Shown in pieces: positions 29,641-50,755 of a stretch of DNA of 64,000 nt. The position numbers were made by a program, and so were the translations under genes. Origin of the DNA: Streptomyces sp. TG1A-60 (GTDB taxonomy: Bacteria > Actinomycetota > Actinomycetes > Streptomycetales > Streptomycetaceae); assembly GCF_037201975.1 (NCBI RefSeq), contig NZ_CP147520.1, positions 3,224,001-3,288,000 of the forward strand. Reading direction: 5' to 3'. The first letter of the stretch is position 1; each line of letters begins with the position of its first letter. The notes below the pieces were generated by a model, which ran no database searches, had not been told where the DNA came from, and was given only the letters and a program-made list of their open reading frames with translations.

Positions 29641-29886
29641 TGGGATCTGCCGCCCTTCGGAACCGCTTTTCGGCGGTGCTCCGTGGCGACGACGTAAACG
29701 ATACCTGATGCCCAGGGGTGCTTCGCCACCTGATTGATCAGTACTCGCAGGGGGCCGGGTGGCTAGGCTTGTCCGGATGCGGTCCGGGACATACGCCGGG
29801 CTCGGCGGTCGTCTACCGCGCGCGCCGATACGCACCCGATGGTCCCGACAAGCCCCCCGACACCCCGATACAAGGAGCCACAGGAC

Positions 29887-30375
29887 ATGGCCGACTCCAG
29901 TTTCGACATCGTCTCGAAGGTCGAGCGGCAGGAGGTCGACAACGCCCTCAACCAGGCCGCCAAGGAGATCTCTCAGCGCTACGACTTCAAGGGCGTCGGC
30001 GCCTCGATCTCGTGGTCCGGCGAGAAGATCCTGATGGAGGCGAACTCCGAGGAGCGGGTGAAGGCCGTCCTCGACGTCTTCCAGTCCAAGCTGATCAAGC
30101 GCGGGATCTCCCTCAAGGCCCTGGACGCGGGTGAGCCCCAGCTGTCCGGCAAGGAGTACAAGATCTTCGCGTCGATCGAGGAGGGCATCTCCCAGGAGAA
30201 TGCCAAGAAGGTGGCGAAGATCATTCGCGACGAGGGCCCCAAGGGCGTCAAGGCCCAGGTCCAGGGCGACGAACTCCGCGTCAGCTCCAAGAGCCGCGAC
30301 GACCTGCAGGCCGTGATCGCCCTCCTCAAGGGCAAGGACTTCGACTTCGCGGTGCAGTTCGTCAACTACCGGTGA
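29887..30375 (+). CDS. YajQ-family nucleotide-binding protein
   Basis: 162 residues, full length for YajQ/UPF0234. ATG at 29887 with AAGGAG. It begins [20 protein letters not shown] and contains QRYDFKG and [16 protein letters not shown]. Members bind RNA or nucleotides, and one Xanthomonas relative is a cyclic-di-GMP effector; the role in Streptomyces is not established. It is divergent from tRNA-Tyr and ends at a strong terminator. Confidence 0.93.
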
Positions 30376-32224: not shown

Positions 32225-32623
32225 CTACCAGCGCTGCTGGGCGAAGGGCTGGTCGGAGCGGACGATCTCGCGGCCCAGCGGCATCAGCGAGACCGGGACG
32301 AGCTTGAAGTTGGCGATGCCGAATGGGATGCCGATGATCGTGATGCAGAGCGCGATACCCGTGAAGATGTGGGTCAGCGCCAGCCACCAGCCCGCCAGGA
32401 CCAGCCACAGGATGTTGCCGAAGCAGGAGGGCGCGCCCGCGTCTCGGCGCTCGACCGCGGTGTATCCGAAGGGCCACAGGGCGTAGATGCCGATGCGGAA
32501 CGACGCGATGCCGAACGGGATGCCGATGATCGTGATGCACAGAAGCAAGCCTGCGAACAGGTAGCCGAGGAAGAGCCAGAAGCCGCTGAGGATCAGCCAG
32601 ATGATGTTGAGAATGGTCTTCAC
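32225..32623 (-). CDS. YccF domain-containing inner-membrane protein
   Basis: 132 residues from GTG at 32623, overlapping the htpX stop as GTGA, so translation is coupled. Two internal repeats each contain the YccF signature ([13 protein letters not shown] appears twice, in the first and second halves), giving about four membrane segments. Function unknown. Its pairing with the envelope protease HtpX suggests a shared membrane-quality role, which is inference. Confidence 0.9.
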
Positions 32624-33483
32624 TGGGGGCGACCTGCCATCTTCTCGAGTCGGGCGATGCGTTCCGCCATCGGCGGGTGTGTCGAGAACATTCTGGAGAA
32701 GCCCCGGCCCGGCCGGAAGGGGTTCGCGATCATCATGTGGCTCGCGGTCTCGATCCGGGGCTCGGGGGGCAGCGGGAGCTGCTTGGTTCCCGCTTCCAGT
32801 TTGCGAAGGGCACTGGCGAGGGCCAGAGGGTCGCCGGTGAGCTGGGCGCCGGAGGCGTCCGCCTCGTACTCCCTGGAGCGGCTGATCGCGAGCTGGATGA
32901 GGCTCGCGGCGAGCGGACCCAGGATCATGACCAGCAGCATGCCGAGGAGGCCGGGGCCGTCGTCGTCGTCCGAGCGACCGATGGGGATCAGCCAGGCGAA
33001 GTTCACCAGGAACATGATCACGGAGGCGAGGGCGCCGGCGACCGTCGAGATCAGGATGTCGCGGTTGTAGACATGGCTCAGCTCGTGGCCGATGACGCCG
33101 CGCAGCTCTCGCTCGTCGAGCAGGCGGAGGATGCCGTCGGTACAGCACACGGCCGCGTTGCGGGGGTTGCGGCCGGTCGCGAACGCGTTCGGGGCATCCG
33201 TCGGGGAGATGTACAGGCGGGGCATGGGCTGGCGGGCCTGGGTGGAGAGCTCGCGGACCATGCGGTACAGCGCCGGGGCCTCGAACTCGCTCACCGGGCG
33301 GGCACGCATCGCGCGTAGAGCGAGCTTGTCGCTGTTCCAGTACGCGTACGCGTTCGTGCCGAGGGCGATGAGGACCGCGACGAGCAGGCCCGTGCGGCCG
33401 AAGAAGCTTCCTATGCCGATGATGAGTGCGGACAGCCCCCCGAGGAGTACGGCGGTCCTGAGCCCGTTGTGCCGGCGGTGCAC
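32620..33483 (-). CDS. htpX: membrane zinc metalloprotease HtpX
   Basis: 287 residues from GTG at 33483 with GGAGGG upstream; the reading to 33606 adds a non-conserved tail. Two N-terminal membrane helices (residues 10-50), then the M48 zinc motif HELSH (H133, E134, H137), further hydrophobic segments with [12 protein letters not shown], and [13 protein letters not shown] with the third zinc glutamate. It degrades damaged membrane proteins on the cytoplasmic side. It lies 163 bases downstream of nuoN and overlaps yccF by 4 bases. Confidence 0.95.
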
Positions 33484-33646
33484 GGTACGCCCTCCAAGTC
33501 GTGCGGCAGGGGAACCCTTTGCCTGCTGTTGCTGTCGACTCCACTTCTCAGTGGACTCTCCCGTACCGGTCAACGCCAGGCGGGGAGTACTAGTTCCCTT
33601 GTGCACGCGGCCCGACCGGTGGGCCGGCCGGGTGAAGGCGGGCTCG

Positions 33647-35200
33647 TCAGAAGAGGCTGGTGTCGGCGAAGCGCAGGACGAGCTGGGGTGCGCCGGAGAG
33701 GGCGATGCCGACGATCCCGGTCAGGGCGAGGGCGGCCGTCAGTGGTGCCGGGACGCGATGCGGCAGGGCGCCGGCGCTGTCGCCTTCGGGGGCGCGGAAC
33801 AGCAGGGCGGTCCACTGGAGGTAGTAGAAGAGGGCGATCACGACGTTGACGGCCATGACGACGGCGAGCCAGCCGAGGCCGGCGTCGACGGCCGCCGAGA
33901 AGACGGTGACCTTGGCGAACAGGCCGATGATGCCCGGCGGCAGCCCGGCGAGGCAGAGGAGGAAGAAGGCCAGGAGCAGGGCGGGCAGGGGGCTCGACGC
34001 GTACAGGCCCCGGTAGTCGCTGACGCGGTTGAGGGTCTTCGTACGGCCGACGAGGGCGGCGACGGCGAAGGCGCCGAGGTTCACGGCCGCGTACATCAGG
34101 GCGTAGGCGACGGTGGAGCCGATGGTCTTCTCGGCGTCGTCGGTGTTCTCGGCGTATGCCGCCGCCGCGATCGGCACCAGGAGGTAGCCGGCCTGGCCGA
34201 CAGAGGACCAGGCGAGCAGCCGGACCGCGCTGTGGGCGCGCGTGGACTGCTGCCGCAGGGCGCCGACGTTGCCGACGGTCATGGTGAGGGCGGCCAGTGC
34301 GGCGAGGGCGGGTCCCCAGACGTCGGCGTACGACGGGAGGGCGACGACGGTGACGAGGATCAGGCCGGAGAAGCCGACCGCCTTGCCGACGACCGAGAGG
34401 TAGGCGGCTACCGGCAGGGGGGCGCCCACGTAGGTGTCGGGGACCCAGAAGTGGAACGGTACGGCGGCCGTCTTGAAGGCGAAGCCGATGAGGGTGAGGA
34501 CGACGCCGGCCTGCGTGAGGGTGTGCAGTTGGCCGTCGACGTCCTGGATCCGCTCGGCGATCTCGGTGAGGTACAGGGTGCCGGTGGTGGCGTAGAGGAA
34601 GCTGACGCCCAGCAGGCTGACGGCCGTGGCGGTGACGGACGACAGGAAGAACTTCAGGGCCGCCTCGGAGGACCGCTTGTCGCCGTTCCGGATACCGACG
34701 AGGGCGAAGGCCGGCAGGGAGGCGACCTCCAGGGCGACGATGAGGGTCGCGAGGTCGCGGGAGGCGGGCAGGAGGGCGGCACCGGCGGCGGAGGACAGCA
34801 GCAGGAACCAGAACTCCCCTTCGGGGAGTTCCTTCTTTTCGTCGTTCAGGGCCGTCATCGACAGCAGGGCGGCGACGAGGGCCCCGCCGAGGACGAGCAA
34901 CTGGACGACGAGGGTGAAGCGGTCGGCGGTGTAGCTGCAGACGTCCGGGGTGCCGGTCAGGCAGAAGGTGGCGCGGTCGCCGTCCAGAAGGGGTACGAGG
35001 GCCAGCAGGGAGACGGCGAGGCCCGCGACGGAGGTCCAGCCGAGGAGGGGCTTCCGCTTGTCGCCCACGAAGAGGTCGGCGACGAGCACGGCGAGGCCGG
35101 CGACCGCGGCGATGGTGGGCGGCGCGATCACGAGCCAGTCGACGGACTGGACGACGGACTCGGCCAGGGCCTGGGTCGGCGGCTGGGCCAGGACGCTCAA
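33647..35200 (-). CDS. nuoN: complex I subunit N homologue
   Basis: 517 residues from TTG at 35200, overlapping the nuoM stop by 3 bases, with AGGAGG just upstream. A 14-helix antiporter-like proton channel: [17 protein letters not shown] carries the helix-5 glutamate, [22 protein letters not shown] the helix-7 lysine region, and [16 protein letters not shown] the helix-12 lysine region. It is the last gene of the incomplete nuo cluster. Proton translocation should be possible by motif content. Confidence 0.95.
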
Positions 35201-36771
35201 CGGATGCCTCCTGCGAGGAGCTGCTGCACGGCCGGATCGGTCAGACCGAGGAGGGCCGCGGGCCAGAGGCCGGCGAGGACGGTGAGGGCGACGAGCGGGG
35301 TCCAGGCCGCGAACTCGTACGTCTGTACGTCGGCGAGCCGCGTCCCTTCCTTGGGGGTGGCGCCCATGCAGACGCGGCGGACCACGATCAGCAGATACGC
35401 GGCGGTGAGGAGCGTGCCGAACGCGGCGATCGTCATGAAGGTGAGGAAGGCCGGGCGGCTGAGGCCCTCGGCGGGCCGGAACGCTCCGAACAGCGCCAGC
35501 ATCTCGCCCCAGAACCCGGCCAGACCGGGCAGGCCGAGGGAGGCGACGGCGGCGAAGGCGAGCAGGCCGCCGAGGCGCGGGGCCCTGCCGTAGAGGGCGG
35601 CGCCGGTCTCCTGCGCGAGGGTGTCCAGGTCGGTGGTGCCGGTGCGGTCCTTCAACGCGCCGACCAGGAAGAAAAGCAGGCCGGTGATGAGACCGTGCGC
35701 GATGTTCGCGAAGAGCGCGCCGTTGACGCCGGTCGGGGTCATCGTGGCGATACCGAGGAGCACGAAGCCCATGTGGCCGACGGAGGAGTACGCGATGAGG
35801 CGCTTGAGGTCGCCCTTCGCGCCCTGCTTGGCGAGGGCGAGGCAGGCCAGCGAACCGTAGATGATGCCGACGACCGCGAGGGCGGCGAGGTACGGCGCGA
35901 AGGTACGGAACCCGTCGGGTGTGATCGGCAGCAGGATGCGGACGAAACCGTAGGTGCCCATCTTCAGCAGGACGCCCGCCAGCAGGACCGAGCCGACGGT
36001 CGGGGCGGCTGTGTGGGCGTCCGGCAGCCAGCTGTGCAGCGGCCACATCGGGGTCTTCACCGCGAGGCCGATCCCGATCGACAGAACGGCGATGACCTGC
36101 ACGGATGTGGTCAGCTCAGGGTGATTGTCAGTGGCGAGTGCCACCATGTCGAATGTGCCCGCCCTGAGTCCGATCAGGAGCAGGCCGAGCAGCATGACCA
36201 CGGAACCGAGCAGGGTGTAGAGGATGAACTTCCAAGCGGCCCGCGTGCGTTCCTCGCCGCCCCAGCGGGCGATGAGGAAGTACATCGGGATGAGCACCAT
36301 CTCGAACGCGAGGAAGAACAGCAGCAGGTCGAGGACGGCGAAGGTCGCGAGGGTGCCGGATTCGAGGACGAGCAGCAGGGCGACGAATGCCTTCGGGGAC
36401 GGGCCCGCAGGCATCTTGAAGTAGGAGTAGAGCGCGCAGAGGAAGGTCAGCAGCGCGGTCAGGACCAGGAGGGGGAGGGAGATTCCGTCGATTCCGAGGT
36501 GGATGCGCACGTCGAGTGCGGGGATCCAGCTGATGTCCGTGGTGGCCTGCATCTTCGACGGCTGGTCGTGGTCGAAGCCGAGCGCGATGGCGATCGCGGC
36601 GATGAGGACCGCGCCGGTCACGGTCATGCCGTGGCGGAGTACGGCCTGCTCGGGTGACTTTCCCTTCAGTCCGGGCGGCGCCGGCAGGAGAGCGGCGGCG
36701 GCGCCGATGAGCGGGCCGACGACGACGAACGCCAGAAGGAACTGCATCACGGACTCGTTGATATCGATCAC
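35197..36771 (-). CDS. nuoM: complex I subunit M homologue
   Basis: 524 residues from GTG at 36771; ATG at 36747 is an alternative start. Antiporter-like subunit with FFLAFEMVLIPMYFLIARWGG (helix-5 glutamate), GLAVKTPMWPLHSWLPDAHTAAPT (helix-7 lysine), and RLIAYSSVGHMGFVLLGI. The C-terminus ends QQLLAGGIR. It is 6 bases after nuoL and overlaps nuoN. All proton-channel residues that I can place are present, so decay is not suggested. Confidence 0.95.
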   Translation of the reverse strand: MIDINESVMQFLLAFVVVGPLIGAAAALLPAPPGLKGKSPEQAVLRHGMTVTGAVLIAAIAIALGFDHDQPSKMQATTDISWIPALDVRIHLGIDGISLPLLVLTALLTFLCALYSYFKMPAGPSPKAFVALLLVLESGTLATFAVLDLLLFFLAFEMVLIPMYFLIARWGGEERTRAAWKFILYTLLGSVVMLLGLLLIGLRAGTFDMVALATDNHPELTTSVQVIAVLSIGIGLAVKTPMWPLHSWLPDAHTAAPTVGSVLLAGVLLKMGTYGFVRILLPITPDGFRTFAPYLAALAVVGIIYGSLACLALAKQGAKGDLKRLIAYSSVGHMGFVLLGIATMTPTGVNGALFANIAHGLITGLLFFLVGALKDRTGTTDLDTLAQETGAALYGRAPRLGGLLAFAAVASLGLPGLAGFWGEMLALFGAFRPAEGLSRPAFLTFMTIAAFGTLLTAAYLLIVVRRVCMGATPKEGTRLADVQTYEFAAWTPLVALTVLAGLWPAALLGLTDPAVQQLLAGGIR

Positions 36772-36777
36772 GCCTGC

Positions 36778-38772
36778 TCACGCTCCCGTGGCGACGACGA
36801 GGGCGGCGACCACCAGGACGACGGTGCCGGCGAGCAGCGCGCTCACATAGGTCTGCACATTGCCGGTCTGGGCCCGGCGGACAGCCGCGCCCAGCAGGCG
36901 GGGCAGGGCGCCCGCGCCGTGTACGTAGGTGTCGACGACCTCGCGGTCGAGGAACCGGACGAGACTCGCGCCGGCCTGGACCGGGCGGACGAAGAGGGCC
37001 GTGTAGACGGCGTCGATGTGGAAGCCGGCGGCGGCGTGGCGGTGCAGCGGGCCGAGCAGGAGGCGGCCCGGGTCCGCCGGGTCGGGTGCCGAGGCCACGT
37101 TCCCGTAGGCGGGGGTGTGGCTGGCAATGGCCTCCGCCTCGACCGTGGCGGCGTCCGCCTCGGGGTGGGCCGCGACCGCGCCGAGGGGCGCGCGGGCAGC
37201 TGCCGCCGTGGTGTGCCGCCAGGCCGCGTAGGTCACCAGGGCTCCGATCAGGGCGACGCCCGTGCCGAGGACGGACGTGGTGAGGGTGGGGGCCAGATCG
37301 TCGCCGTCGAACCAGTCGGGGAGTCTGCCGTAGGCGAGTGCGCCGAGGGCGAGGGACGGGACGGCGAGCACCCACAGCACGACGGTCATGGTGCGCGGCT
37401 GGCGACCGTGGTCGGGGGCTTCGGCGCCCTTGCCGTGGAAGGCGAGCAGCCACAGCCGAGTGGCGTACGCGGCGGTGAGCAGGGCGGTGAGGACGCCGGC
37501 GACGAGGACGGTCCAGCCGGCGGCGCCGGGGATGTGCTCGGCGTGGCCGGTGGCGGCGTGCTCGGCGGCGCCGAGGACGGACTCCTTGGAGAAGAACCCG
37601 CTGAAGGGCGGGATCGCGGCGAGGGCGAGCAGCGCCACGGTCATCGTCCAGAAGGCGTCCGGGACGCGGGCGCGCAGGTGGCTCATGCGGGACATGGCGG
37701 CCAGGGAGTTGGTGCCGGCGGCGTGGATGATCACGCCGGCCGCGAGGAACAGCAGCGCCTTGAAGGCGCCGTGGGAGAGGAGGTGGAAGACGGCGGCTCC
37801 TCGGTCACCGACGGCGAGGGCCCCGGTCATGTAGCCGAGCTGGCCGATCGTCGAGTAGGCGAGGACGCGCTTGATGTCGTCCTGGGCGAGGGCGGCGAGC
37901 GCCGAGCCCGCCATGGTGAGCGCGGCCATGACGGCGAGGACGACCAGGGCCGCCGAGGAGGCGGCGAAGAGCGGGAGGAGGCGCGCGACGAAGTAGACAC
38001 CGGCGGCGACCATCGTCGCGGCGTGGATCAGCGCGGAGACGGGCGTGGGGCCCGCCATCGCGTCGGGGAGCCAGGTGTGCAGCGGGAACTGGGCGGACTT
38101 GCCCGCGACACCGGCCAGGAGCAGCAGGGCGATCAGGGTGGGGTGGTCGACGCCGCCGCCGGCGACCGTGTCGAGGATCCGGGTGATGCGGAAGGAACCG
38201 GCGTCCCCTGCGAGGGCGAACAGACCGATCAGGAAGGGGACGTCACCGAGCTTGGTGACCAGGAATGCCTTGAGGGAGGCGGCGCGGGCCTGCGGGGTCT
38301 CCCAGTAGTGGCCGACCAGGAAGTACGAGCAGATACCCATGATCTCCCAGCCGACCAGGAGCACCATCAGGTCGCCGGAGTAGACGACGAGGAGCATCGC
38401 GGAGGTGAAGAGGGAGACGAGGGCGGCGTAGGAGGGGTAGCGGGGGTCGTCGCGCAGATAGCCCGTCGAGTAGATCTGCACACAGGTCGCGACCAGGCCG
38501 ACCAGGACGGCGACGAGGGCGGCGAAGCCGTCGATGTGCAGGGCGAGTTCGACGGGGACCGAGCCGGTGGGGGTGAGCTGGGTGGCCGCGTCGACCGGGC
38601 TGTCGCCGCCGTGGCGGACGGCGACCAGTGCGGCCAGGGCGAAGGCCGCGAGGGTGGGCAGTACGGCGAGGGGGCGGACGAAGCCGGGGGCGGTGCGGCC
38701 GAGGAGCAGGCCGGCGGCGGCGCCGAGGAACGGGAGGAGGGGGACGAGGACGGCGAGGGTGGTCGTGGTCAC
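36778..38772 (-). CDS. nuoL: complex I subunit L homologue
   Basis: 664 residues, full length for the distal antiporter subunit with its C-terminal lateral helix. [20 protein letters not shown] carries the helix-5 glutamate, [30 protein letters not shown] the helix-7 lysine-type region, and [17 protein letters not shown] the helix-12 lysine. It starts GTG, overlapping the nuoK stop as GTGA. The loop after helix 14 (near residue 520-560) is Ala/Glu-rich. It lies at the far end of the membrane arm. Confidence 0.96.
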
Positions 38773-39176
38773 GCGGTGGCCTCGGCCTTCTCGCTCCGGC
38801 CGGACGGGTCGGCCGTGGCGGTGGCCTCGTCGGGGGCGTCGGGATCGTCGGTCTCGCGGCCCTCGGCGGTGTCGCGGAGCTTGTCGATGTCCGCGGTGCC
38901 CCGGTTGCGGTGGACGGCGAGGACGATCGCCAGGCCGATGCCGATCTCGGCGGCGGCGATGGTGATGGTGAACAGGGTCAGGGCCTGGCCGGAGTGCAGG
39001 GTCTCCTCGGCGGCCTTGCTGAGCCAGACGTCGAAGGCGACGAGGTTGAGGTTGACGGCGTTGAGCATCAGCTCGACCGACATCAGGACGAGGATCGCGT
39101 TGCGGCGGGCGAGGACGCCGTACAGGCCCGTGCAGAACAGGAGGGCGGAGAGCACGACGGGATAGGCGAGGTGCAT
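38769..39176 (-). CDS. nuoK: complex I subunit K homologue
   Basis: 135 residues, somewhat longer than the usual 100 because of an acidic tail ([19 protein letters not shown]). It has three membrane helices. The conserved glutamate is in [21 protein letters not shown] and the second in [18 protein letters not shown] start one base into the nuoJ stop; its own stop overlaps nuoL. It forms part of the E-channel and proton path. Confidence 0.95.
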
Positions 39177-39835
39177 CAGCGGACGCCTCCCTTGGATCCC
39201 TCGGATCCCTCGGGTTCCTTGGATTCGTCGAGCCCCTTCGACCCCTTGGTCTCTGTGCCCGGCCTGGGTGCGCCGGATGCCTTGGCCGGGTCGGCGTTCG
39301 TCTTGGCCTTGCGGGAGAGGACGATCGCGCCGACCAGGGCGGCGAGGAGGAGGACGGAGAGGGCCTCGAAGGGGAGCACCCAGTTCTGGAAGAGGCTTTC
39401 GCCGGTGGTCCTCGTGGAGCCGGCGGCGGGGCCGTCGAGGTCGATCCAGGTGGTGCGGAAGGCGTCGACGACGACCCAGACGAGGGCGGCGGCCGAGGAG
39501 ACGGCCACGGTGAGGGCGGCCCAGCGGTTGCCGGAGTCGGCGTCCGGGGAGCGGCCGATGGGGGCCTTGGTGAGCATCAGACCGAACAGGAGGAGGACGA
39601 CGACGGAACCGACGTAGATGAGGACCTGCACCCAGGCGATGAACTCGGCGGTGAGCAGGAGGTACTCGACGGCGAGACCGCCGAGCGCCACCACCAGCCA
39701 CAGGGCGGCGTGCACCAGCTGCCGGGTGGTGACGGTGACGATCGCCGCGCCCAAGGTGACCAGGCCGACGAGGAGGAAGGCGATCTCGACGCCGGTCGGG
39801 GAGAGAAAGCCGTGGGGTGGCTGGGCGAGGATCAC
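39176..39835 (-). CDS. nuoJ: complex I subunit J homologue
   Basis: 219 residues from GTG at 39835, overlapping the nuoI stop as GTGA. Five membrane helices. Helix 3 has [23 protein letters not shown], the pi-bulge helix involved in coupling. The tail is charged and repetitive ([21 protein letters not shown]), longer than usual. It lies between nuoI and nuoK. Confidence 0.95.
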
Positions 39836-40446
39836 GACTCCCCTCCCCGGCTCTCGTTCGGCTCGGCCTGGGCCGCCGCCAGCTTCTCGGCGGATTTGCG
39901 GGCTGCGGCAAGTTCCTTGGGTTCTTCGGCCGAGGGGTCCAGGGCGGGTGGGGAGGGGACCGTCCACATCCACTCGCGGAGCTTGTCGCGTTCGTGGGTG
40001 AGTTCGTGGATGTCGGTCTCGGCGTACTCGAACTCCGGGGACCAGAAGAGTGCGTCGAAGGGGCAGACCTCGATGCAGATACCGCAGTACATGCAGAGGG
40101 AGAAGTCGATGGCGAAGCGGTCGAGGACGTTGCGGCTGCGCTCGCGACCGCCGGGGGCGGCGGGCGGGACCGTCTCCTTGTGGGAGTCGATGTAGATGCA
40201 CCAGTCCGGGCACTCGCGGGCGCACAGCATGCAGACCGTGCAGTTCTCCTCGAAGAGACCGATGACGCCACGGGTGCGGGGCGGGAGTGCGGGCTGGACG
40301 TCCGGGTACTGCTCGGTGACGGTCTTCCTCGTCATCGTGCGGAGGGTGACGGCCAGACCCTTGGCCAGGCCGGAACCGGGGATCGACGGACGGGGCCGCC
40401 CGGAGGGCGTCGTCGAGGGGTGCTGGTCGGGCGACGGGCGGGACAT
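39832..40446 (-). CDS. nuoI: complex I subunit I homologue, two [4Fe-4S] clusters
   Basis: 204 residues from ATG at 40446. Both ferredoxin-type motifs are complete: C69, C72, C75, C79 and C118, C121, C124, C128, giving clusters N6a and N6b. The C-terminal 40 residues are Ala/Glu-rich. It would carry electrons to NuoB. It lies 2 bases after nuoH. With no nuoE/F/G here, the electron donor to these clusters is unknown; a reduced ferredoxin is one possibility. Confidence 0.95.
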
Positions 40447-40448
40447 GG

Positions 40449-41417
40449 TTACCGGATCACCACCTTGACGACGCCGGTGAGGGCGATCTGGGCGAGGGAG
40501 AGTGGGACGAGGAGGGTCCAGGAGAGCTTCTGGAGCTGGTCCTCGCGCAGGCGGGGGTAGGTGACGCGGAGCCAGATGACGAGGAAGGCGAGGACGGCGG
40601 TTTTCAGGAGGGTCCAGACCCAGCCGAGGCCGTCGGCGCCCCAGGGGCCGTGCCAGCCGCCGAGGAAGAGGACGGTGGTCAGGCCGCACAGGAGGACGAT
40701 TCCGGCGTACTCGGCGAGGAGGAACAGGGCGAAGCGGAGGCCGGTGTACTCGGTGTAGGCGCCGAAGATGATCTCCGAGTCGGCGACGGGCATGTCGAAC
40801 GGGGGGCGCTGGAGTTCGGCGAGGCCGGCGACGAAGAAGACGATCGCGCCGACGATCTGCCAGGGCAGCCACCACCACTCGAACGCGTCGAGGATGCCGA
40901 CGAGGGAGACCGTGCCGGCCGCCATCGCCACCGAGGCGGCGGTGAGCAGCATCGGGAGTTCGTACGCGAGGAGTTGGGCGGCGGTGCGGAGGCCGCCGAG
41001 GAGGGAGAACTTGTTCGCGGAGGCCCAGCCGGCCATGAGTGAACCGAGGACGCCTACGCCCATCACGGCGAGGACGAAGAAGATGCCCGCGTCGATGACC
41101 GTGCCGACGGCGCCCTCGCCCGGACCGATCGGGATGGCGAGGAGGACGAGGAGGTAGGGGAGGAGGGCCACGGCCGGGGCGAGTTGGAAGATGCGACGGT
41201 CGGCTCCGGCCGGGACGACGTCTTCCTTCTGTGCGAACTTCACGCCGTCCGCGACGAGTTGGGCCCAGCCGTGGAAGCCGCCGGCGTACATGGGGCCCAG
41301 GCGGCCCTGCATGTGGGCCATCACCTTGTGTTCGGTCTGGCCGATGATCAGGGGGAAGGTGAGGAAGACGACGAAGACGAGGAGGAGTCGCAGGGCGACG
41401 TCCAGAGCGTCGTTCAC
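40449..41417 (-). CDS. nuoH: complex I subunit H homologue
   Basis: 322 residues, eight or more membrane helices. It has the family segments [20 protein letters not shown] (a variant of RxGPNxVGPxGxLQ), [17 protein letters not shown], and [23 protein letters not shown] with the quinone-cavity acidic residues. It starts ATG, overlapping the nuoC stop by 4 bases. It should form the quinone chamber together with NuoB and NuoD, yet nuoD is not in the cluster. Confidence 0.95.
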
Positions 41418-42955
41418 TGCCGGCCTCCTGTAGGGGGTTCGAGGTTGGGAGGTTCGGGGTCGGGGGTCTCGTCGGCGGGCGCGTCGGTGTCGTCAGGTGT
41501 GCCGCCGTCGGGGCTTTCGCCGGGAGGGGCCTCGTCCGGGGGTGTGCCGGGTGACTTGGGTCGCTGCGGTGGGGTGCCGGGAGCGGGGGTGCGCCCGGCT
41601 GAGTCGGCCGCGTCGGAGTCGAGGGCGGAAGCGGGCTCGACGGTCTCGGCCTCGTCCGGGGCTGCCTTGGCGCGGGGTACGGCGTCCGGCTCGTCGAAGG
41701 CGGGGCGCGCGTGGTGCCAAGGCGCGTCCGCGCTGCGCGGGGCGGGGCGCGCAGGGCGCGGACGTGCGGTGGGCTCGGCGGGGCCGGAGGACTCTGCGGG
41801 GGGCGTGCGTCGGCTCGCCGGGCCTTCGGACGCGCTGCGGGAGCGGCGCGGTGCGGCCGGAGGCGTTGGCTCAGCGGGGGGCGGCTGGTGGCCGGGGGCC
41901 GGCTGCTGCTCCGATGCGGCACCCGGCTCCGCGGAGGTGGCCCGGTCTCCGGGAGCGGTGCGCTCCTCGGACGCCGGCTGCTCCCCGGCAGCGGTCCGCG
42001 ATCCGGCGGCCGGGGGCTCTGCTGGGGAGGGCCCCGCTGCGGTCCGGGACCGTTGCGTGGCTGAGCCCTCGCTCGCGCTGCGCGCGCGGCGCGGGGCCGT
42101 AGGGCTGTCGGCACCGTCACGGGCCGTACCCGTCGCGGTCTGGCTCGCGGAGCCCTCGGCCGCCGAACGGGTGCGACGCGGCGACCCCGGAGCAGCCGAC
42201 CCATCCCGCACCGGACCACCCCCCACCTGGCTCGCCGAACCCTGCGATGCCGAGCGGGTGCGGCGTGGGGTGGTGGCGGGGGCTTCGGGGTCTTCAGTGG
42301 AGGGCCGGCCGGCCGAGTCTTCGTTTGCCGAGCGGGCTCGGCGGGCCGGGCGGTCGGCGGGGCCTCGGGCGGGGCGGGCGGGGGCCGGGGGGAGTTGGCC
42401 CTTGAGAGGGCCCCATTCGTTGGGGTCGGGGACGCCGGGTGGGAGCATCTGGCGGCGTTTGGGGGCGCCGTGTTCGGACTCGCCCGGTTCCTTGGCACCT
42501 GGCCAGGCCTTGGCGACGCGCGCGGCGAGGACGAAGTCCTTGCGGAGGGGGTGGCCCTCGAAGTTCTCGGGGAGGAGAAGGTGGTCCAGGGCGGGATGGC
42601 CCTCGAAGCGGACACCGAACATTTCGTGGGTCTCGCGTTCGTGCCAGGCCGCGCCGGCGTAGATGTCCACGGCGGTGGGCAGGACCGGGGACTCGTGCGG
42701 GACCGTCGTACGGACGAGGAGACGTCGGACGGGGTCCAGGGCGACCACGTGGGCCGACACGCGCAAGCCCGTGCCCGGTTCGTCGACCGCGCTGAGCCAG
42801 TCGAAGTAGGTGCAACCCAGGGTGGAACGGGCCGTGCGCAGGGCCTCCGTCCAGGATGCGGGCGGGACGTCCACGGTGAGGACGGCGTACGACTCCTCGG
42901 CCGTGGCCTCGGGGCCGAAGAGTTCCTCGGCGGGGGCGGGCAGCCAACCTGTCAC
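41414..42955 (-). CDS. nuoC: complex I subunit C homologue with long repetitive C-terminal extension
   Basis: 513 residues against 170-240 normally. Residues 20-145 are the 30-kDa domain with the signature [19 protein letters not shown] and [11 protein letters not shown]. From about 185 to the end the sequence is Pro/Ala/Ser/Glu-rich and disordered in character. Five copies of an RR-x-RSAxEGSA motif start at residues 205, 231, 260, 289 and 370, the first four 26-29 apart. The frame stays open to the nuoH overlap, so the tail is translated if nuoC is. GTG start overlaps the nuoB stop. No nuoD follows and none is fused to it. Confidence 0.92.
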
Positions 42956-43608
42956 TCGTCACCCTCCCCGGCACCGGTACTCGTCCCGCCGCCGGGCGCG
43001 GCCGACGGCGGCTTGACCAAGTCGCTCTGCAGGGCCGCCGGCGACGGGCGGGACCCTGCCGCGGCCCCCGTCCCCGTACCGGGGCCGTTCCCGTAGCGCT
43101 CGCTCAGGGACTCTCGGGAGATCTTCTCCTGGAGTTTCAGGATGCCCTGGAGGAGGGCCTCGGGGCGGGGCGGGCAGCCGGGGACGTAGACGTCGACCGG
43201 GATGATCTGGTCGACGCCCTTGGTGACGGAGTAGGAGTCCCAGTAGGGGCCGCCGCAGTTGGAGCAGGCGCCGAAGGAGATGACGTACTTGGGCTCCGGC
43301 ATCTGCTCGTACAGGCGCTTCACGGCCGGGGCCATCTTGTCCGTGACCGTGCCGGAGACGACCATCAGGTCGGCCTGGCGCGGGCCCGGGGCGAAGGGGA
43401 TGACGCCGAGGCGGATGAAGTCGTGGCGGGCCATGGACGCGGCGATGAACTCGATCGCGCAGCAGGCGAGGCCGAAGTTGAAGACCCAGAGGGAGTACCG
43501 GCGGCCCCAGTTGAGGATCACCTTCATCGGCTCGGGGGCGAGGCGGGCTAGGGCGCCCAGCCGCTTCGGCTCCGGGAGGAGAACGGGTTCCGCGGGGTTC
43601 ACGTCCAT
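42952..43608 (-). CDS. nuoB: complex I subunit B homologue, N2 cluster
   Basis: 218 residues from ATG at 43608. All four N2 ligands are present: tandem C49-C50 in [11 protein letters not shown]115 in GACSNCGG, and C145 in VPGCPPRPE. The extra C118 is also typical. The C-terminal ~45 residues are Gly/Ser/Pro-rich beyond the fold. It overlaps nuoA by 10 bases and nuoC by 4. It would pass electrons to quinone. Confidence 0.95.
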
Positions 43609-43994
43609 GCCAGGACGCCCTTCTTGTACGCGTAGAGCAGGCCCACGGCCAGGAAGCCGAGGAAGACGAACATCTCGACGAGCGTCGTCGCGCCGTAGCC
43701 GGGGTCGGCGAAGACCGTCGCCCAGGGGAAGAGGAAGATCGAGTCGATGGCGAAGATGACGTAGAGGAAGGCGTAGACGTAGTAGCGGACCTGGGTGTGG
43801 GCCCAGCCCTCGCCGACCGGGTCGACGCCGCACTCGTACGTCAGGAGCTTCTCCCGCGTGGGGACCTCGGGCCGCAGCAGCCGTCCCGCGCCGAAGGCGA
43901 CGGCGACGAAGAGCACGCCCACGGCGGCGAGCAGTCCGACCACCGAGTAGGACTCGAAGTAGTCCGCCGCTGTGGCGACGGTCGGTTCCGGCAT
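43599..43994 (-). CDS. nuoA: complex I subunit A homologue
   Basis: 131 residues from ATG at 43994. Three membrane helices with [16 protein letters not shown] in the loop between helices 1 and 2 and [21 protein letters not shown] in helix 2. The first gene of the minus-strand nuoABCHIJKLMN run. The 276 bases upstream face the divergent sensor-kinase gene and should contain both promoters. Confidence 0.95.
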
Positions 43995-45510: not shown

Positions 45511-45731
45511 CGGGTGGCGGTGAGGGCGGGGTCGGGTGCGTCGCGGGGCGGGGCCGTGCATGGGCGCTGACCGTGCGTCGCGGCCCGGCCGACCGGGGCG
45601 GGTGGGGTGGGCGGGGTGGGGAAAACCCCCGTGCCGAGACGCCGATGTGCTCCATGGTCCGGGCGGCTGGGGGCGAGCACTGTGGGAGTACGGCATCCGA
45701 AGTGCGGGACGATCAGAGACGGGCGAGGGCG

Positions 45732-47102
45732 ATGGCCACGGAGTACGGACGCGGGTACGAGAGGTGGGGCGGGGAGCGGCGGCATCGGCTGCCGGCCGGG
45801 TTGCGGGCGCCGATCGAGGCACGCACCTGGCGGGAGTTCGGATATGTGCTGCTGGGGCTCCCGATCGGGATTCTGCTGTTCACGTACGCCGTGACGATGC
45901 TGTCCGTCGGCGCGGGCCTGCTGGTCACCTTCCTCGGGGTGCCGGTGCTGGCGGCGGGGCTGGCCGGGTGCCGGGGGTTCGGCGCGCTGGAGCGGGCGCG
46001 GGCGCGGGCGCTGCTCGGGGTGGAGGTGGACCCGCCGGAGCCGTTGCCCATGAAGGGGCGCGGGGCGATGGCGTGGATGGGCGCCGTGCTCCGCAGCGGG
46101 TCCTCGTGGCGGCACCTGCTGTACGCGGTCGTGCAGTTCCCGTGGTCCGTGTTCTCGTTCGCGGTGGCGGTGAGCTTCTGGACGTACGGCTGGGCGCTGC
46201 TGACGTATCCGCTGTGGTTCTGGGTCTTCCCCGTGTGGGCCGGGCAGGACGGGTTGCAGCTGTACGGGGACGAGACGCACTCCGTGTACCTCGACAACCC
46301 GTTCGAGGTGACCGTGACCGCACTGGTGGGGCTGCTCTTCACCGTGGCCACCCCGTGGATCCTGCGGGCGCTGACGATGGTCGACCGGGTGAGCGTGACC
46401 GCGTTGCTCGGGCCGTCGCGGCTGGGGGCGCGGGTGGTGGAGCTGGAGTCGGACCGGGGGGTCGTGGTCGACACGGCTGCCGCCGATCTGCGGCGTATCG
46501 AGCGGAATCTGCACGATGGCGCGCAGGCTCGACTGGCGGCGCTGGCCATGGAGCTGGGGCTGGCGCAGGAGAAGATGGCGGAGGATCCGCGGGCGGCGGC
46601 GGTGATGGTGGACTCGGCGCACGGGGAAGTGAAGACGGCGTTGCGGGAGCTGCGGGAGCTGGCGCGGGGCATCCATCCGGCCGTGCTCACCGACCGGGGG
46701 CTCGACGCGGCGCTGTCGGCGGTCGCCTCGCGGTGTGCGGTGCCGGTGGTGGTGGACGTGGATCTGCCGGCGCGGCCGGTGCCGGCGATCGAGGGGATCG
46801 CGTACTTCACCGTGTCGGAGCTGCTCCAGAACGTGAGCGGGCACGCGGGGGCTTCGCGCGCGACCGTGGATGTGTGGAAGGTCGAGGACCGGCTGATGCT
46901 CCAGGTCATGGACGACGGCATGGGAGGCGCCGACACCGCGTCCGGGTCCGGTCTCGCGGGGCTGGCCGAGCGGATCGGTGCCGTCGACGGAATCCTGATC
47001 GTCGACTCACCGGCCGGCGGCCCCACACGCGTGACGGCGGAGCTGCCGTGGCGGGCGGCGCGAGGGAGCGGGGCTGCGAGCGCCGGCTCGGGGAGGGCCT
47101 GA
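45732..47102 (+). CDS. two-component sensor histidine kinase, NarL-partner type (second copy)
   Basis: 456 residues from ATG at 45732 with GAGGGCG. Same architecture as the preceding kinase, with a longer extracellular loop between helices 3 and 4 (about 25 residues more, QDGLQLYGDETHSVYLDNPF). H261 in RRIERNLHDGAQARLA is the phospho-acceptor. The linker ELESDRGVVVDTAAADLRR is identical in both copies, marking a tandem duplication. N box ELLQNVSGHAGA and G box GLAGLAERI are intact. Confidence 0.94.
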   Translation: MATEYGRGYERWGGERRHRLPAGLRAPIEARTWREFGYVLLGLPIGILLFTYAVTMLSVGAGLLVTFLGVPVLAAGLAGCRGFGALERARARALLGVEVDPPEPLPMKGRGAMAWMGAVLRSGSSWRHLLYAVVQFPWSVFSFAVAVSFWTYGWALLTYPLWFWVFPVWAGQDGLQLYGDETHSVYLDNPFEVTVTALVGLLFTVATPWILRALTMVDRVSVTALLGPSRLGARVVELESDRGVVVDTAAADLRRIERNLHDGAQARLAALAMELGLAQEKMAEDPRAAAVMVDSAHGEVKTALRELRELARGIHPAVLTDRGLDAALSAVASRCAVPVVVDVDLPARPVPAIEGIAYFTVSELLQNVSGHAGASRATVDVWKVEDRLMLQVMDDGMGGADTASGSGLAGLAERIGAVDGILIVDSPAGGPTRVTAELPWRAARGSGAASAGSGRA

Positions 47103-47743
47103 CGGTGGGCCGAGGTCGGTGCCTTGCGGCGGCCTGGGAAGGGGCGGCCTCATCGTGGCGGCCCGAGAGGAGAACCTGAGGCGGCGACCTGAGAGGTGGC
47201 GGCGACCCGAGGGGGCTGAGCGCGGTGCCCGACGGCCGCCTCGTGGCACGGCAGGCGCGCTTGCCCCTCAAGGAGCGGCGTCCGGTGCGTGCTCTCGGCG
47301 TGTCGGCCGGAAGGCCTTGTACCGGACGGGTGCATGGGCTTTCGGCCGGTGCGGTGAGAGGGCGTGCCGGGCGTCACGACGGGGCGGACGTTGCCTGTCG
47401 CGGCAGACAACCAGGGAGGTGGCCTGACGGCAGCGCGGCCTGGTGGGGCCCTGACCGTGGTGCCAGAAGCGCGTCCAGGGGTTCTCGTCCCTGGGCGCGC
47501 CTCCGTGTCTCACCCCGGCGCGTATCCGTGCCCCCCTCCGACGGCGCGGCCCGGGGGCGAGCCCCCTGCCTCGCCGGCACAGGGATGGCAATCGGCCACT
47601 TCACAGCCGCTTCCTGCCCCTGTTTTCTCGTCGTCGGAGCGCCTGGGCGGTCCGATGCTGGAATGCTGGTGTCTGCTGTGCGGGCCGGGCCGAGGTCGAG
47701 GGTCGGCGGGGGTGGGTGTCGGTTGCCGTGGGGGGAATCAGGC
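47103..47743 (+). other. 641-base G-rich spacer without a supported gene
   Basis: Lies between the second kinase and the response regulator. Open frames here are Arg/Gly-rich and not protein-like. I see no tRNA, riboswitch or strong terminator. The response-regulator promoter may lie at its right end. Confidence 0.5.
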
Positions 47744-48415
47744 GTGGAGGACAGCGTGCGGGTGGTCATCGCCGAGGATTCGGTGCTGTTGAGGGAGGGG
47801 CTGACGCGGCTGTTGACCGACCGGGGGCACGAGGTCGTGGCGGGGGTCGGGGACGGGGAGGCGCTGATCAAGACGATCACGGATCTCGCGGCCCAGGGAG
47901 ACCTCCCGGACGTGGTCGTGGCGGACGTACGGATGCCGCCGACGCACACGGACGAGGGCGTGCGGGCCGCCGTACAGCTGCGGAAGCAGCACGGGGAGCT
48001 GGGGGTGCTCGTACTGTCGCAGTACGTGGAGGAGCGGTACGCCACCGAACTGCTCGCGGGGTCCAGTCGCGGCGTCGGGTATCTGCTGAAGGACCGGGTG
48101 GCCGAGGTGCGGGAGTTCGTGGACGCGGTCGTACGGGTGGCGCGGGGCGGTACCGCGCTGGACCCGGAGGTGGTCGCGCAGTTGCTCGGGCGGAGCCGGA
48201 AGCAGCACGTGCTCGCGGGGCTCACCCCGCGCGAGCGCGAGGTGCTGGGGCTGATGGCGGAGGGGCGGACGAACTCCGCGATAGCCCGGCAGCTCGTGGT
48301 CAGTGACGGTGCCGTCGAGAAGCACGTCAGCAATATCTTTCTCAAGCTCGGGCTGTCCCAGAGCGACGGGGACCATCGGCGTGTTCTGGCGGTGCTCACC
48401 TACCTCAATTCATGA
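47744..48415 (+). CDS. NarL/LuxR-family response regulator
   Basis: 223 residues from GTG at 47744 (GGGGGGA upstream); GTG at 47756 with GGAGG is nearly as good. Receiver domain: acidic pair E11/D12, phospho-acceptor D61 in VVVADVRMPP, and LKDRV for the conserved lysine. LuxR helix-turn-helix at about residues 157-210 (LTPREREVLGLMAEGRTNSAIARQL). It is presumably phosphorylated by one or both upstream kinases. Targets unknown; the flanking nuo and kor operons are the obvious candidates (inference). Confidence 0.94.
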   Translation: MEDSVRVVIAEDSVLLREGLTRLLTDRGHEVVAGVGDGEALIKTITDLAAQGDLPDVVVADVRMPPTHTDEGVRAAVQLRKQHGELGVLVLSQYVEERYATELLAGSSRGVGYLLKDRVAEVREFVDAVVRVARGGTALDPEVVAQLLGRSRKQHVLAGLTPREREVLGLMAEGRTNSAIARQLVVSDGAVEKHVSNIFLKLGLSQSDGDHRRVLAVLTYLNS

Positions 48416-48817
48416 TCACCTGACACTGTGTCAGTTACATCGGGGCTCGGACCGGTCGGTTCGGCGGGCCGGGCGGCTCGTGATCGATCGACTCGCGGTC
48501 CATCGGGACGGTCGGGAGGGTCGGCTCGCGACCCATCGGCGTTCGCCTCCGCCCGGCCTCGCCCAACCCCCGCCCACCCCCGTCCAGCCCGCGCCCACCC
48601 CCCGTCCGACGGAGAGCCACCGAACGGCGGTCCGTGGCTCCACGGGAAGCACCACAGGCAGGTAAAGCATGACAATTCAGGGTGCCCGAGAGTCTCGAAA
48701 CAGCGTCCATCAGGCGAAAGGGCGAGGGAAGGGCACCCTCGCCGACGTAGGGTTGGTCTTGGGAGGGCCGGCGGGACGGCCGTTCCCGGACAGCCGCCTC
48801 AAGGGAGGTCCAGTTCA
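48416..48817 (+). other. korA upstream region with inverted repeat
   Basis: About 400 bases with no supported gene. AGGGTGCCC (48679-48687) is repeated inverted as GGGCACCCT (48731-48739), and GGCGAGG/CCCTCGCC pairs locally. These could be an mRNA leader structure or an operator of the kor operon. Confidence 0.45.
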
Positions 48818-50755
48818 GTGACCAGCCAGGTCAGCAGCCCAGCGGAGCAGGCCGACGAGGCCGCTCTGGGAGAACTGAGGGAACAGCGCAGAACGACGGG
48901 GACGAAGGACGTCCGTCGGCTCGATCGGGTGATCATCCGGTTCGCGGGCGACTCCGGTGACGGTATGCAGCTCACCGGTGACCGTTTCACCTCCGAAACG
49001 GCCTCCTTCGGCAACGACCTCTCCACCCTGCCGAACTTCCCCGCCGAGATCCGCGCCCCCGCCGGCACCCTCCCGGGTGTGTCCAGCTTCCAGCTGCACT
49101 TCGCCGACCACGACATCCTCACCCCCGGTGACGCGCCCGATGTGCTCGTCGCGATGAACCCGGCCGCACTGAAGGCGAACATCGGCGACGTACCACGCGG
49201 CGCGGAGATCATCGTCAACACCGACGAGTTCACCAAACGGGCTTTGCAGAAGGTCGGGTACCCGACCAGCCCGCTGGAGGACGGCTCACTCGACGGATAC
49301 AGCGTCCATCCGGTACCGCTGACCACCCTCACCGTCGAGGCCCTCAAGGAATTCGACCTCACCCGCAAGGAGGCCGAGCGCAGCAAGAACATGTTCGCGC
49401 TCGGCCTCCTGTCCTGGATGTACCACCGTCCAACCGAGGGCACCGAGAAGTTCCTGGCCGCCAAGTTCGCCAAGAAGCCCGACATCGCCGCCGCCAACCT
49501 CGCCGCCTTCCGCGCCGGGTGGAACTTCGGCGAGACCACCGAGGACTTCGCCGTCCGCTACGAGGTCGCGCCCGCCGCGCAGGCGTTCCCCGCCGGCACC
49601 TACCGCAACATCTCCGGGAACCTGGCCCTGTCCTACGGCCTGATCGCCGCCTCCCGGCAGGCGGATCTGCCGCTCTACCTGGGCTCCTACCCGATCACCC
49701 CGGCCTCGGACATCCTGCACGAGCTGAGCCGGCACAAGAACTTCGGTGTCCGTACCTTCCAGGCGGAGGACGAGATCGCGGGTATCGGGGCGGCACTGGG
49801 GGCCGCGTTCGGGGGTTCCCTGGCGGTCACGACGACCTCCGGCCCGGGTGTGGCGCTCAAGTCGGAGACCATCGGACTCGCCGTCTCGCTCGAACTGCCG
49901 CTCCTCGTCATCGACATCCAGCGCGGCGGCCCCTCCACCGGGCTGCCGACCAAGACCGAGCAGGCCGACCTGCTCCAGGCCATGTACGGACGCAACGGCG
50001 AGGCCCCGGTCCCGGTCGTCGCGCCGCGCACACCCGCCGACTGCTTCGACGCCGCCATCGAGGCGGCCCGCATCGCACTGACGTACCGCACGCCGGTGTT
50101 CCTGCTCTCCGACGGCTACCTGGCCAACGGCAGCGAACCCTGGCGCATCCCCGAGCCCGACGAACTCCCCGACCTCACCGTGCAGTTCGCCCAGGGGCCG
50201 AACCACACGCTCGACGACGGCACCGAGACGTTCTGGCCCTACAAGCGCGACCCTCAGACCCTCGCCCGCCCGTGGGCGGTCCCGGGCACGCCGGGGCTCG
50301 AACACCGCATCGGCGGCATCGAGAAACAGGACGGCACCGGCAACATCTCCTACGACCCGGCCAACCACGACCTCATGGTGCGGACCCGGCAGGCGAAGAC
50401 CGACGGGATCGACGTCCCCGACGTCGACGTCGACGACCCGCACGAGGCGCGCACGCTCGTACTGGGCTGGGGGTCGACATACGGGCCGATCACTGCGGCG
50501 GTACGGCGGCTGCGGACGGCCGGGGAGTCCATCGCGCAGGCCCATCTGCGGCATCTCAACCCGTTCCCGCGCAATCTCGGGACGGTGCTGAGGCGTTACG
50601 ACAAGGTGGTGATCCCCGAGATGAACCTCGGGCAGCTCGCCACCCTCGTCCGGGCGAAGTACCTGGTCGACGCCCAGCCGTACAACCAGGTGAACGGCAT
50701 GCCGTTCAAGGCGGAGCAGCTCGCCACGGCTCTCAAGGAGGCCATCGATGGCTGA
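48818..50755 (+). CDS. korA: 2-oxoacid:ferredoxin oxidoreductase, alpha subunit
   Basis: 645 residues from GTG at 48818 with AAGGGAGG. Fusion of the gamma domain (RLDRVIIRFAGDSGDGMQLTG at residues 33-53) with the alpha pyrimidine-binding domain (LGSYPITPASDILHELS and FQAEDEIAGIGAALGAAFGG). With KorB it oxidatively decarboxylates 2-oxoglutarate, or a related 2-oxoacid, to the acyl-CoA while reducing ferredoxin. This two-subunit form works in aerobes, including mycobacteria. It overlaps korB by 8 bases. Confidence 0.94.
   Translation: MTSQVSSPAEQADEAALGELREQRRTTGTKDVRRLDRVIIRFAGDSGDGMQLTGDRFTSETASFGNDLSTLPNFPAEIRAPAGTLPGVSSFQLHFADHDILTPGDAPDVLVAMNPAALKANIGDVPRGAEIIVNTDEFTKRALQKVGYPTSPLEDGSLDGYSVHPVPLTTLTVEALKEFDLTRKEAERSKNMFALGLLSWMYHRPTEGTEKFLAAKFAKKPDIAAANLAAFRAGWNFGETTEDFAVRYEVAPAAQAFPAGTYRNISGNLALSYGLIAASRQADLPLYLGSYPITPASDILHELSRHKNFGVRTFQAEDEIAGIGAALGAAFGGSLAVTTTSGPGVALKSETIGLAVSLELPLLVIDIQRGGPSTGLPTKTEQADLLQAMYGRNGEAPVPVVAPRTPADCFDAAIEAARIALTYRTPVFLLSDGYLANGSEPWRIPEPDELPDLTVQFAQGPNHTLDDGTETFWPYKRDPQTLARPWAVPGTPGLEHRIGGIEKQDGTGNISYDPANHDLMVRTRQAKTDGIDVPDVDVDDPHEARTLVLGWGSTYGPITAAVRRLRTAGESIAQAHLRHLNPFPRNLGTVLRRYDKVVIPEMNLGQLATLVRAKYLVDAQPYNQVNGMPFKAEQLATALKEAIDG

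Follow-up and report, generated by a model that had tools for sequence, protein, structure and literature searches.

How does a bacterium use a complex I operon from which four genes are missing? The chromosome of Streptomyces sp. TG1A-60 carries such a set, nuoA-B-C-H-I-J-K-L-M-N (hereafter nuo2), on the minus strand at positions 33647-43994 of the window analysed here, a stretch of 64,000 nucleotides that corresponds to bases 3224001-3288000 on the one 7.83 Mb contig that makes up the genome. A preliminary description, based on the letters of the DNA, had left two options: the set borrows NuoD, NuoE, NuoF and NuoG from a complete operon elsewhere, or it forms a distinct complex with another electron donor. 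We argue that the cluster probably belongs to an 11-subunit ferredoxin-type complex I, for which it supplies the membrane arm and the greater part of the electron core, and that the NuoD of this complex is encoded in trans.

Gene content and conservation of nuo2

A Pfam analysis with curated cut-offs, in which NuoI was recognized via its Fer4 domains, yielded ten intact genes in the order given above and found NuoD, NuoE, NuoF and NuoG in none of them. The preliminary description had read the order and the absences in the same way, and its remark that nuoC runs straight into nuoH is borne out by an overlap of 4 bases. Most junctions indeed overlap or abut, with 10 shared bases between nuoA2 and nuoB2, as had been stated for nearly all of them; at nuoH2-nuoI2 2 bases intervene, and at nuoL2-nuoM2 the gap is 6 or 30 bases depending on the choice of start codon. 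The missing genes do not hide at another contig edge, since the genome consists of one contig.

The set appears well maintained. In a comparison with two relatives, dN/dS was about 0.06-0.23 for the A, B, H, I, L, M and N genes of nuo2 and for the lone nuoD2 introduced below, and about 0.4-0.6 for C, J and K, the genes with low-complexity tails; these values were obtained by NG86 on GC-rich codons and are rough. The tail of NuoC2 (41414-42955) comprises more than 300 residues, is rich in Pro, Ser and Arg, and contains near-repeats like TRSASQGSA, three of which match one pattern and two or three more, by eye, a looser form of it. The same gene order, with NuoA and NuoB 81-98% identical, recurs in nine named Streptomyces loci (L257-L259, L263-L268), and nuoH2 was found in all 40 genomes of the genus within our sample of 394 genomes of the class. 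One could still picture nuo2 as the decaying relic of a second complex I, considering that the membrane arm was lost in several lineages of the tree discussed below, that the nuoH2 remnant of one genome (G030) carries internal deletions, and that the nuoJ of the Streptomyces ambofaciens operon is marked as a pseudogene in a passage of PMC8388888. With ten open genes under purifying selection and nuoH2 in every sampled genome of the genus we rejected this idea, the probability of which we consider negligible, and the earlier judgement that the set is maintained stands.

A separate NuoD and its fit to NuoB2

The genome encodes two NuoD proteins, one in a canonical operon about 42 kb off the cluster and a lone one (NuoD2; contig bases 3473961-3475118, 386 aa) 206 kb off. 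A complete operon and a lone nuoD, both envisaged in the preliminary description, are present in this genome. NuoD2 is 36% identical to the canonical NuoD, and we take it to be the counterpart of SCO3392 of Streptomyces coelicolor. Together with the ten genes of the window it completes the series NuoA, B, C, D, H, I, J, K, L, M and N. Its gene adjoins a convergent gene for a methyltransferase of family PF02636, the NDUFAF7/MidA family (E 8.5e-16).

The distribution over the 394 genomes connects NuoD2 to the cluster. NuoD2 (E <= 1e-85) was detected in 140 and nuoH2 (E <= 1e-70) in 96 of them: 94 genomes have both, 46 have NuoD2 only, 2 have nuoH2 only and 252 have neither. Forty of the double-positive genomes belong to the same genus, and outside it the numbers are 54, 46, 2 and 252. 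Both nuoH2-only cases are incomplete metagenome-assembled genomes (MAGs) with completeness values of 72 and 80%, so every one of the 84 high-quality nuoH2 genomes carries NuoD2. The PF02636 family was found in 134 genomes, 127 with and 7 without NuoD2, and is lacking in 13 NuoD2 genomes; its gene lies inside 79 of 100 fetched NuoD2 loci (by tblastn, some loci stopping at contig edges).

A second connection is provided by one residue near cluster N2. Human NDUFAF7 dimethylates Arg85 of NDUFS2 (PMC3829151), and according to the cited passages of PMC8042128 cluster N2 requires the equivalent residue of Yarrowia, Arg121, which is part of an HRGxE motif; Thermus has a threonine at this place, and an overlay of the Yarrowia and Thermus structures puts Arg121 and an Arg83 of the neighbouring subunit in the same space. 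We aligned 120 NuoD2 sequences (all 100 from outside the genus and 20 of the 40 inside) with 31 canonical NuoD. At the position of the HRGxE arginine, all 119 readable NuoD2 have Arg and all 31 canonical sequences have Thr. The canonical NuoB of our genome has an Arg aligned to position 83 of Thermus Nqo6; in NuoB2 this residue is Thr, and the same holds for all 58 lone NuoB2 among the loci examined. Moreover, 78 NuoB/NuoD pairs are encoded within 4 kb of each other, and the 76 readable ones all have exactly one Arg, 46 in NuoD and 30 in NuoB; the latter all derive from canonical operons of this class and hence are not independent. Given one Arg per pair, NuoD2 fits NuoB2, and the canonical NuoD would leave N2 without an arginine. 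An Arg-form NuoB that lacks a NuoD inside 4 kb was seen in a Chloroflexota-labelled MAG (Ardenticatenaceae; L299, 13504), not far from a NuoB/NuoD pair that is of the other type.

In view of the residue, its pairing and the enzyme family, the NuoD2 arginine may well be the dimethylation target of MidA. The system resembles that of NDUFAF7/MidA and NDUFS2 (PMC3829151, PMC8042128, as far as the cited passages go) in the methyltransferase family and in the target Arg within the HRGxE motif. It differs in that symmetric dimethylation of this arginine is, for NuoD2, a prediction; the likeness of the methyltransferase to the solved homologues is weak (E 3e-8 and 3e-5).

In other lineages the NuoD of this type is found inside the operon. 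A scan with NuoB2 gave at least 80 loci, not a census, and what follows holds among the loci listed. Operons in the order A-B-C-D-H-I-(J)-K-L-M-N occur in Acidimicrobiia, Actinomarina and other MAGs, nearly all actinobacterial by label, and wherever nuoH was reached there is no room for E, F or G between D and H. Their NuoD is of the same Trp-and-Arg type in 16 of 16 pairs (the Trp is discussed below). A methyltransferase gene follows nuoN in L281, L285 and L289, and in Fodinicola (L272) NuoD2 and the methyltransferase stand directly behind nuoN2. A quick tree unites all Trp-type NuoD in a single group (102 rows, SH-aLRT 100) and places the lone NuoD2 within it, as a group of 86 rows that includes Fodinicola (SH-aLRT 100); the tree has long branches among the rows from genomes without nuoH2, omits two rows that were too short and holds a Fodinicola row that fills 29% of the columns. 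In the simplest history, nuoD and midA would have moved out of an operon of 11 genes. L281, L287, L289 and L291 carry a canonical-type nuo set in tandem with the 11-gene operon, immediately upstream of it. One locus of the 11-gene type (L287) is labelled Bifidobacterium breve, and a locus with nuoB2-C2-I2, korAB and htpX but no membrane arm (L280) is labelled Melainabacteria; both resemble other actinobacterial loci, which suggests that the bins are mislabelled.

The view that NuoD2 would join nuo2 in one complex draws support from the co-occurrence, from the paired residues and from the relatives with NuoD inside the operon, and the assignment of NuoD2 and MidA to nuo2 is the strong half of our explanation. 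The canonical 14-subunit complex I of the same genome has homologous subunits in the same order, about 31-36% identical for the A, C, D, H and L pairs. It differs in having NuoD, E, F and G, and in that the shared arginine sits in NuoB, as in Thermus Nqo6. A 14-subunit NADH:quinone oxidoreductase comprises NuoE, F and G with the rest, and these are absent among the cluster genes. No NuoE, F or G is linked to nuo2; the NuoE and NuoF matches of the genome lie elsewhere, and the search for NuoG covered the ten genes.

Passages of PMC9239103 and, for NuoL and NuoM, of PMC8388888 have raised a hybrid, in which nuo2 would borrow NuoD, E, F and G from the canonical operon or exchange subunits into the canonical complex. 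This idea is in line with a gbn mutant that shifts the expression of the two nuo operons in opposite directions (PMC9239103, in the part cited) and with the canonical NuoD that accompanies nuoH2 in 47 of 54 sampled genomes outside the genus. It has to account for G128, a genome that is 100% complete. Here the cluster is present by tblastn (A, B, C, H, I, L, M and N in L059) together with NuoD2, the single NuoB found at the threshold used is of type 2 by its residue, no canonical NuoD was detected at E <= 1e-90, and there is no NuoF match at the threshold used, whereas four relatives in its family have NuoF. NuoB2 moreover has Thr where the canonical pair needs the Arg of NuoB, and a dedicated NuoD2 is present in 94 of the 96 nuoH2 genomes. 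We consequently rejected the hybrid as very improbable, and of the two options of the preliminary description the distinct complex is the one supported, its donor being suggested by the neighbourhood.

Electron donor and quinone site

The genes of the cluster and its surroundings are listed in Table 1. The genes korA and korB, which diverge from nuo2, lie upstream of it behind two sensor kinases and a response regulator, a two-component system. The preliminary description had mentioned neither korA-korB nor the long tail of NuoC2.

Table 1. Position of nuo2 and neighbouring genes in the window
Feature	Position	Strand	Domains and remarks
nuoA2	43599..43994	-	PF00507; ATG start
nuoB2	42952..43608	-	PF01058; Thr where Thermus Nqo6 has Arg83
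nuoC2	41414..42955	-	PF00329 at residues 28-146; 513 aa, long low-complexity tail after NuoC domain
nuoH2	40449..41417	-	PF00146
nuoI2	39832..40446	-	Fer4 domains, two 4Fe-4S motifs; N-terminal helix present; ATG start
nuoJ2	39176..39835	-	PF00499; GTG start
nuoK2	38769..39176	-	PF00420
nuoL2	36778..38772	-	PF00361 and PF00662
nuoM2	35197..36771	-	PF00361; start 36771 or 36747
nuoN2	33647..35200	-	PF00361; likeliest start TTG at 35200
HtpX-like M48 protease	32620..33606	-	PF01435; neighbour common to several arm-less relatives (synteny)
YajQ-like DUF520 protein	29839..30375	+	PF04461; neighbour common to some arm-less relatives
Sensor kinase, AbrC1-like (name from PMC9739823)	44271..45491	+	PF13796 and PF07730
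Sensor kinase, AbrC2-like	45573..47102	+	PF13796 and PF07730
LuxR-type response regulator, AbrC3-like	47225..48415	+	PF00072 and PF00196
korA, 2-oxoacid:ferredoxin oxidoreductase alpha/gamma	48428..50755	+	PF01855, PF01558, PF17147; open frame, true start probably further in
korB, TPP-binding subunit	50748..51836	+	PF02775

In S. coelicolor, nuo2 corresponds to SCO4599-4608 and the divergent regulators AbrC1-3 to SCO4598-4596, according to the part of PMC9739823 cited here, and a passage of PMC8981147 calls SCO4594 an alpha-ketoglutarate ferredoxin oxidoreductase. KorA and KorB of our window have the POR gamma/alpha and thiamine pyrophosphate (TPP) domains of the family (Pfam), and the family points to 2-oxoglutarate as the likely substrate and to ferredoxin as the likely carrier. 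Among the matches listed, both coordinates were available for 72 nuoH2 genomes; the two genes share a contig in 61, and in 60 of these KorB lies within 15 kb. This conserved neighbourhood suggests KorAB and ferredoxin as the donor, which is the weak half of our explanation.

The enzyme might work as follows. KorAB would oxidise 2-oxoglutarate and reduce ferredoxin, which would pass its electrons to the two 4Fe-4S clusters for which NuoI2 has the motifs. From there they would reach cluster N2 in NuoB2, beside Arg61 of NuoD2, presumably dimethylated by MidA. Menaquinone would be reduced where NuoB2, NuoD2 and NuoH2 meet, and protons would be pumped by NuoL2, NuoM2 and NuoN2.

Three observations weigh against this explanation. 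Firstly, KorB is present in 296 of the 394 genomes, many of them without nuo2, and as its mere presence is uninformative we rejected it as evidence and used its position only. The 11-subunit enzyme with NuoD2 could instead have F420H2, NADPH or another protein as donor: with KorB so common in the class the conserved neighbourhood could be historical, and some genomes without a nuoH2 match also have Kor close to their canonical nuo operon. We regard such a donor as unlikely, given KorB near nuo2 in nearly all cases listed and korA beside the reduced nuoB2-C2-I2 locus in 13 of the 20 fetched loci without the membrane arm. In addition, the NuoE/F-like proteins of the genome itself have other partners far from nuo2: a NuoE-NuoF fusion adjoins a molybdopterin oxidoreductase (L012, 2837-5290), and a NuoF-like protein with a ferredoxin domain adjoins a ferric-reductase-like membrane protein (L013, 2978-4591). 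FrhB and FpoF were absent among the 20 window proteins run through Pfam, which was not a search aimed at F420 proteins. KorAB with ferredoxin is the donor we prefer.

Secondly, the quinone site of NuoD2 is altered. In all 119 readable NuoD2, Trp replaces the Tyr to which the quinone head group binds (PMC8119997, in the passage cited) and which by alignment is position 87 of Nqo4. Among the loci listed, the 16 in-operon relatives likewise have Trp, and 30 NuoD from other loci have Tyr. All 73 readable NuoD2 from nuoH2 genomes retain the His of the quinone site, whereas this His differs in 6 of the 46 from genomes without nuoH2. Our own definition of an 11-subunit complex I asks for both the His and the Tyr of this site, and here the Tyr is Trp; the Tyr is perhaps not essential for such an enzyme. 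No other observation casts as much doubt on ordinary quinone chemistry as this replacement. Thirdly, no nuoH2 match was obtained in 46 of the 140 NuoD2 genomes, so NuoD2 also occurs outside the full complex.

Loss of the membrane arm and comparison with known systems

These 46 genomes first seemed to be counter-evidence, until a search with NuoB2 showed that 43 of them have two or more NuoB matches (the second NuoB was typed in part of them). The other three have one NuoB each, of type 2 in G370, of type 1 in G190 and with no type assigned in G343. Exactly one NuoH match was found in 44 of the 46 and a canonical NuoD in 43. G070 was counted here though its contig ends within nuoC2, and its state is doubtful. 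In 20 arm-less loci, hand-chosen from the 46 genomes, nuoC2 comes after nuoB2 in every case, and nuoI2 comes next in the 18 loci that are long enough to show it. Besides korA (see above), an HtpX match after nuoI2 was seen in 7 of the 20, and a YajQ-like gene lies near the locus in L240 (Pfam) and in L235, L245 and L247 (sequence likeness). The HtpX and YajQ neighbours identify the arm-less locus as that of the ten-gene cluster in a reduced form. NuoA2 is represented only by a fragment in L235 and one in L236, the contig of which ends within nuoC2. Among named species, Actinosynnema pretiosum (L269) is arm-less.

The membrane-arm loss is in progress in G030 (L235, 9930-10301), where a nuoH2 remnant with internal deletions lies between an intact-looking nuoC2 and nuoI2. 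In L234 (9900-13990) about 4 kb of unrelated genes occupy the place of nuoH2 between nuoC2 and nuoI2. The distance of NuoD2 from the common ancestor has a median of 1.73 changes per site without nuoH2 (46 rows) versus 0.60 with it (39 rows); however, most of the rows without nuoH2 come from a single clade, and in G016, G161 and G030 the rate is hardly raised. The tree needs 5 state changes, at least one of which is that of the doubtful G070.

The N-terminal helix of NuoI lies against the membrane arm in complex I. Judged by eye on printed sequences, NuoI2 has this helix in all 12 loci that carry nuoH2 and is devoid of it in 16 of the 17 that do not; the sole exception, L235, is the genome with the nuoH2 remnant. 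One further locus did not match the sequence pattern, and two end before nuoI2. The loss of the helix suggests that the arm-less core does not dock on the canonical arm. In many actinobacteria the seven membrane subunits were lost and nuoB2-C2-I2 kept, with NuoD2 and the methyltransferase elsewhere, and we lean slightly towards a soluble NuoBCDI core that would work with KorAB and have an acceptor other than the usual quinone site. As the electron core is kept after loss of the pump, it seems to have a job of its own. If so, the core of a respiratory complex would have reverted to a soluble redox enzyme, and it would act with KorAB even where the pump is present.

The genes described here are the nuo2 and the separate nuoD2 already in print for Streptomyces (PMC9239103, PMC8388888); nuoD2 stands apart from the nuo2 operon in the cited part of PMC8388888. 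The mention, in the preliminary description, of a second incomplete nuo set of undefined function in other Streptomyces agrees with PMC9239103, in which a passage calls the function of nuo2 unclear and suggests a hybrid. The same paper counts NuoC and NuoL as missing, but both are present here by Pfam. In the parts cited, the two papers incline towards a mixing of nuo2 subunits into the canonical complex; our analysis argues against this published idea. We found no paper in the open-licence literature that ties NuoD2 to the methyltransferase or, by residue, to NuoB2, or that describes the arm-less form. The lineage offers natural experiments for complex I: the arginine at N2 has changed from one subunit to another, a methylase goes with a single NuoD paralogue, Trp stands in for the quinone Tyr, and the membrane arm has repeatedly been lost while the electron core was retained.

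The complex I of Campylobacter lacks NuoE and NuoF and receives its input via flavodoxin from a 2-oxoglutarate oxidoreductase. It shares with the proposed enzyme the feeding of such a complex by a 2-oxoacid oxidoreductase, and differs in the carrier and in having NuoD in the operon. A parallel in composition is Desulfitobacterium hafniense, for which the cited part of PMC11238625 reports NuoABCDHIJKLMN without the NADH module and with ferredoxin proposed as donor, and treats the electron donor of 11-subunit complex I as an open question. The Streptomyces system departs from this in having its nuoD in trans, next to the gene of a MidA-family methyltransferase, in the Trp that its NuoD carries at the quinone Tyr, in the presence of a canonical 14-subunit complex in the same host, and in the existence of arm-less derivatives; moreover, an enzyme of the 11-subunit type adjoins one likely electron source, in aerobic and genetically tractable bacteria.

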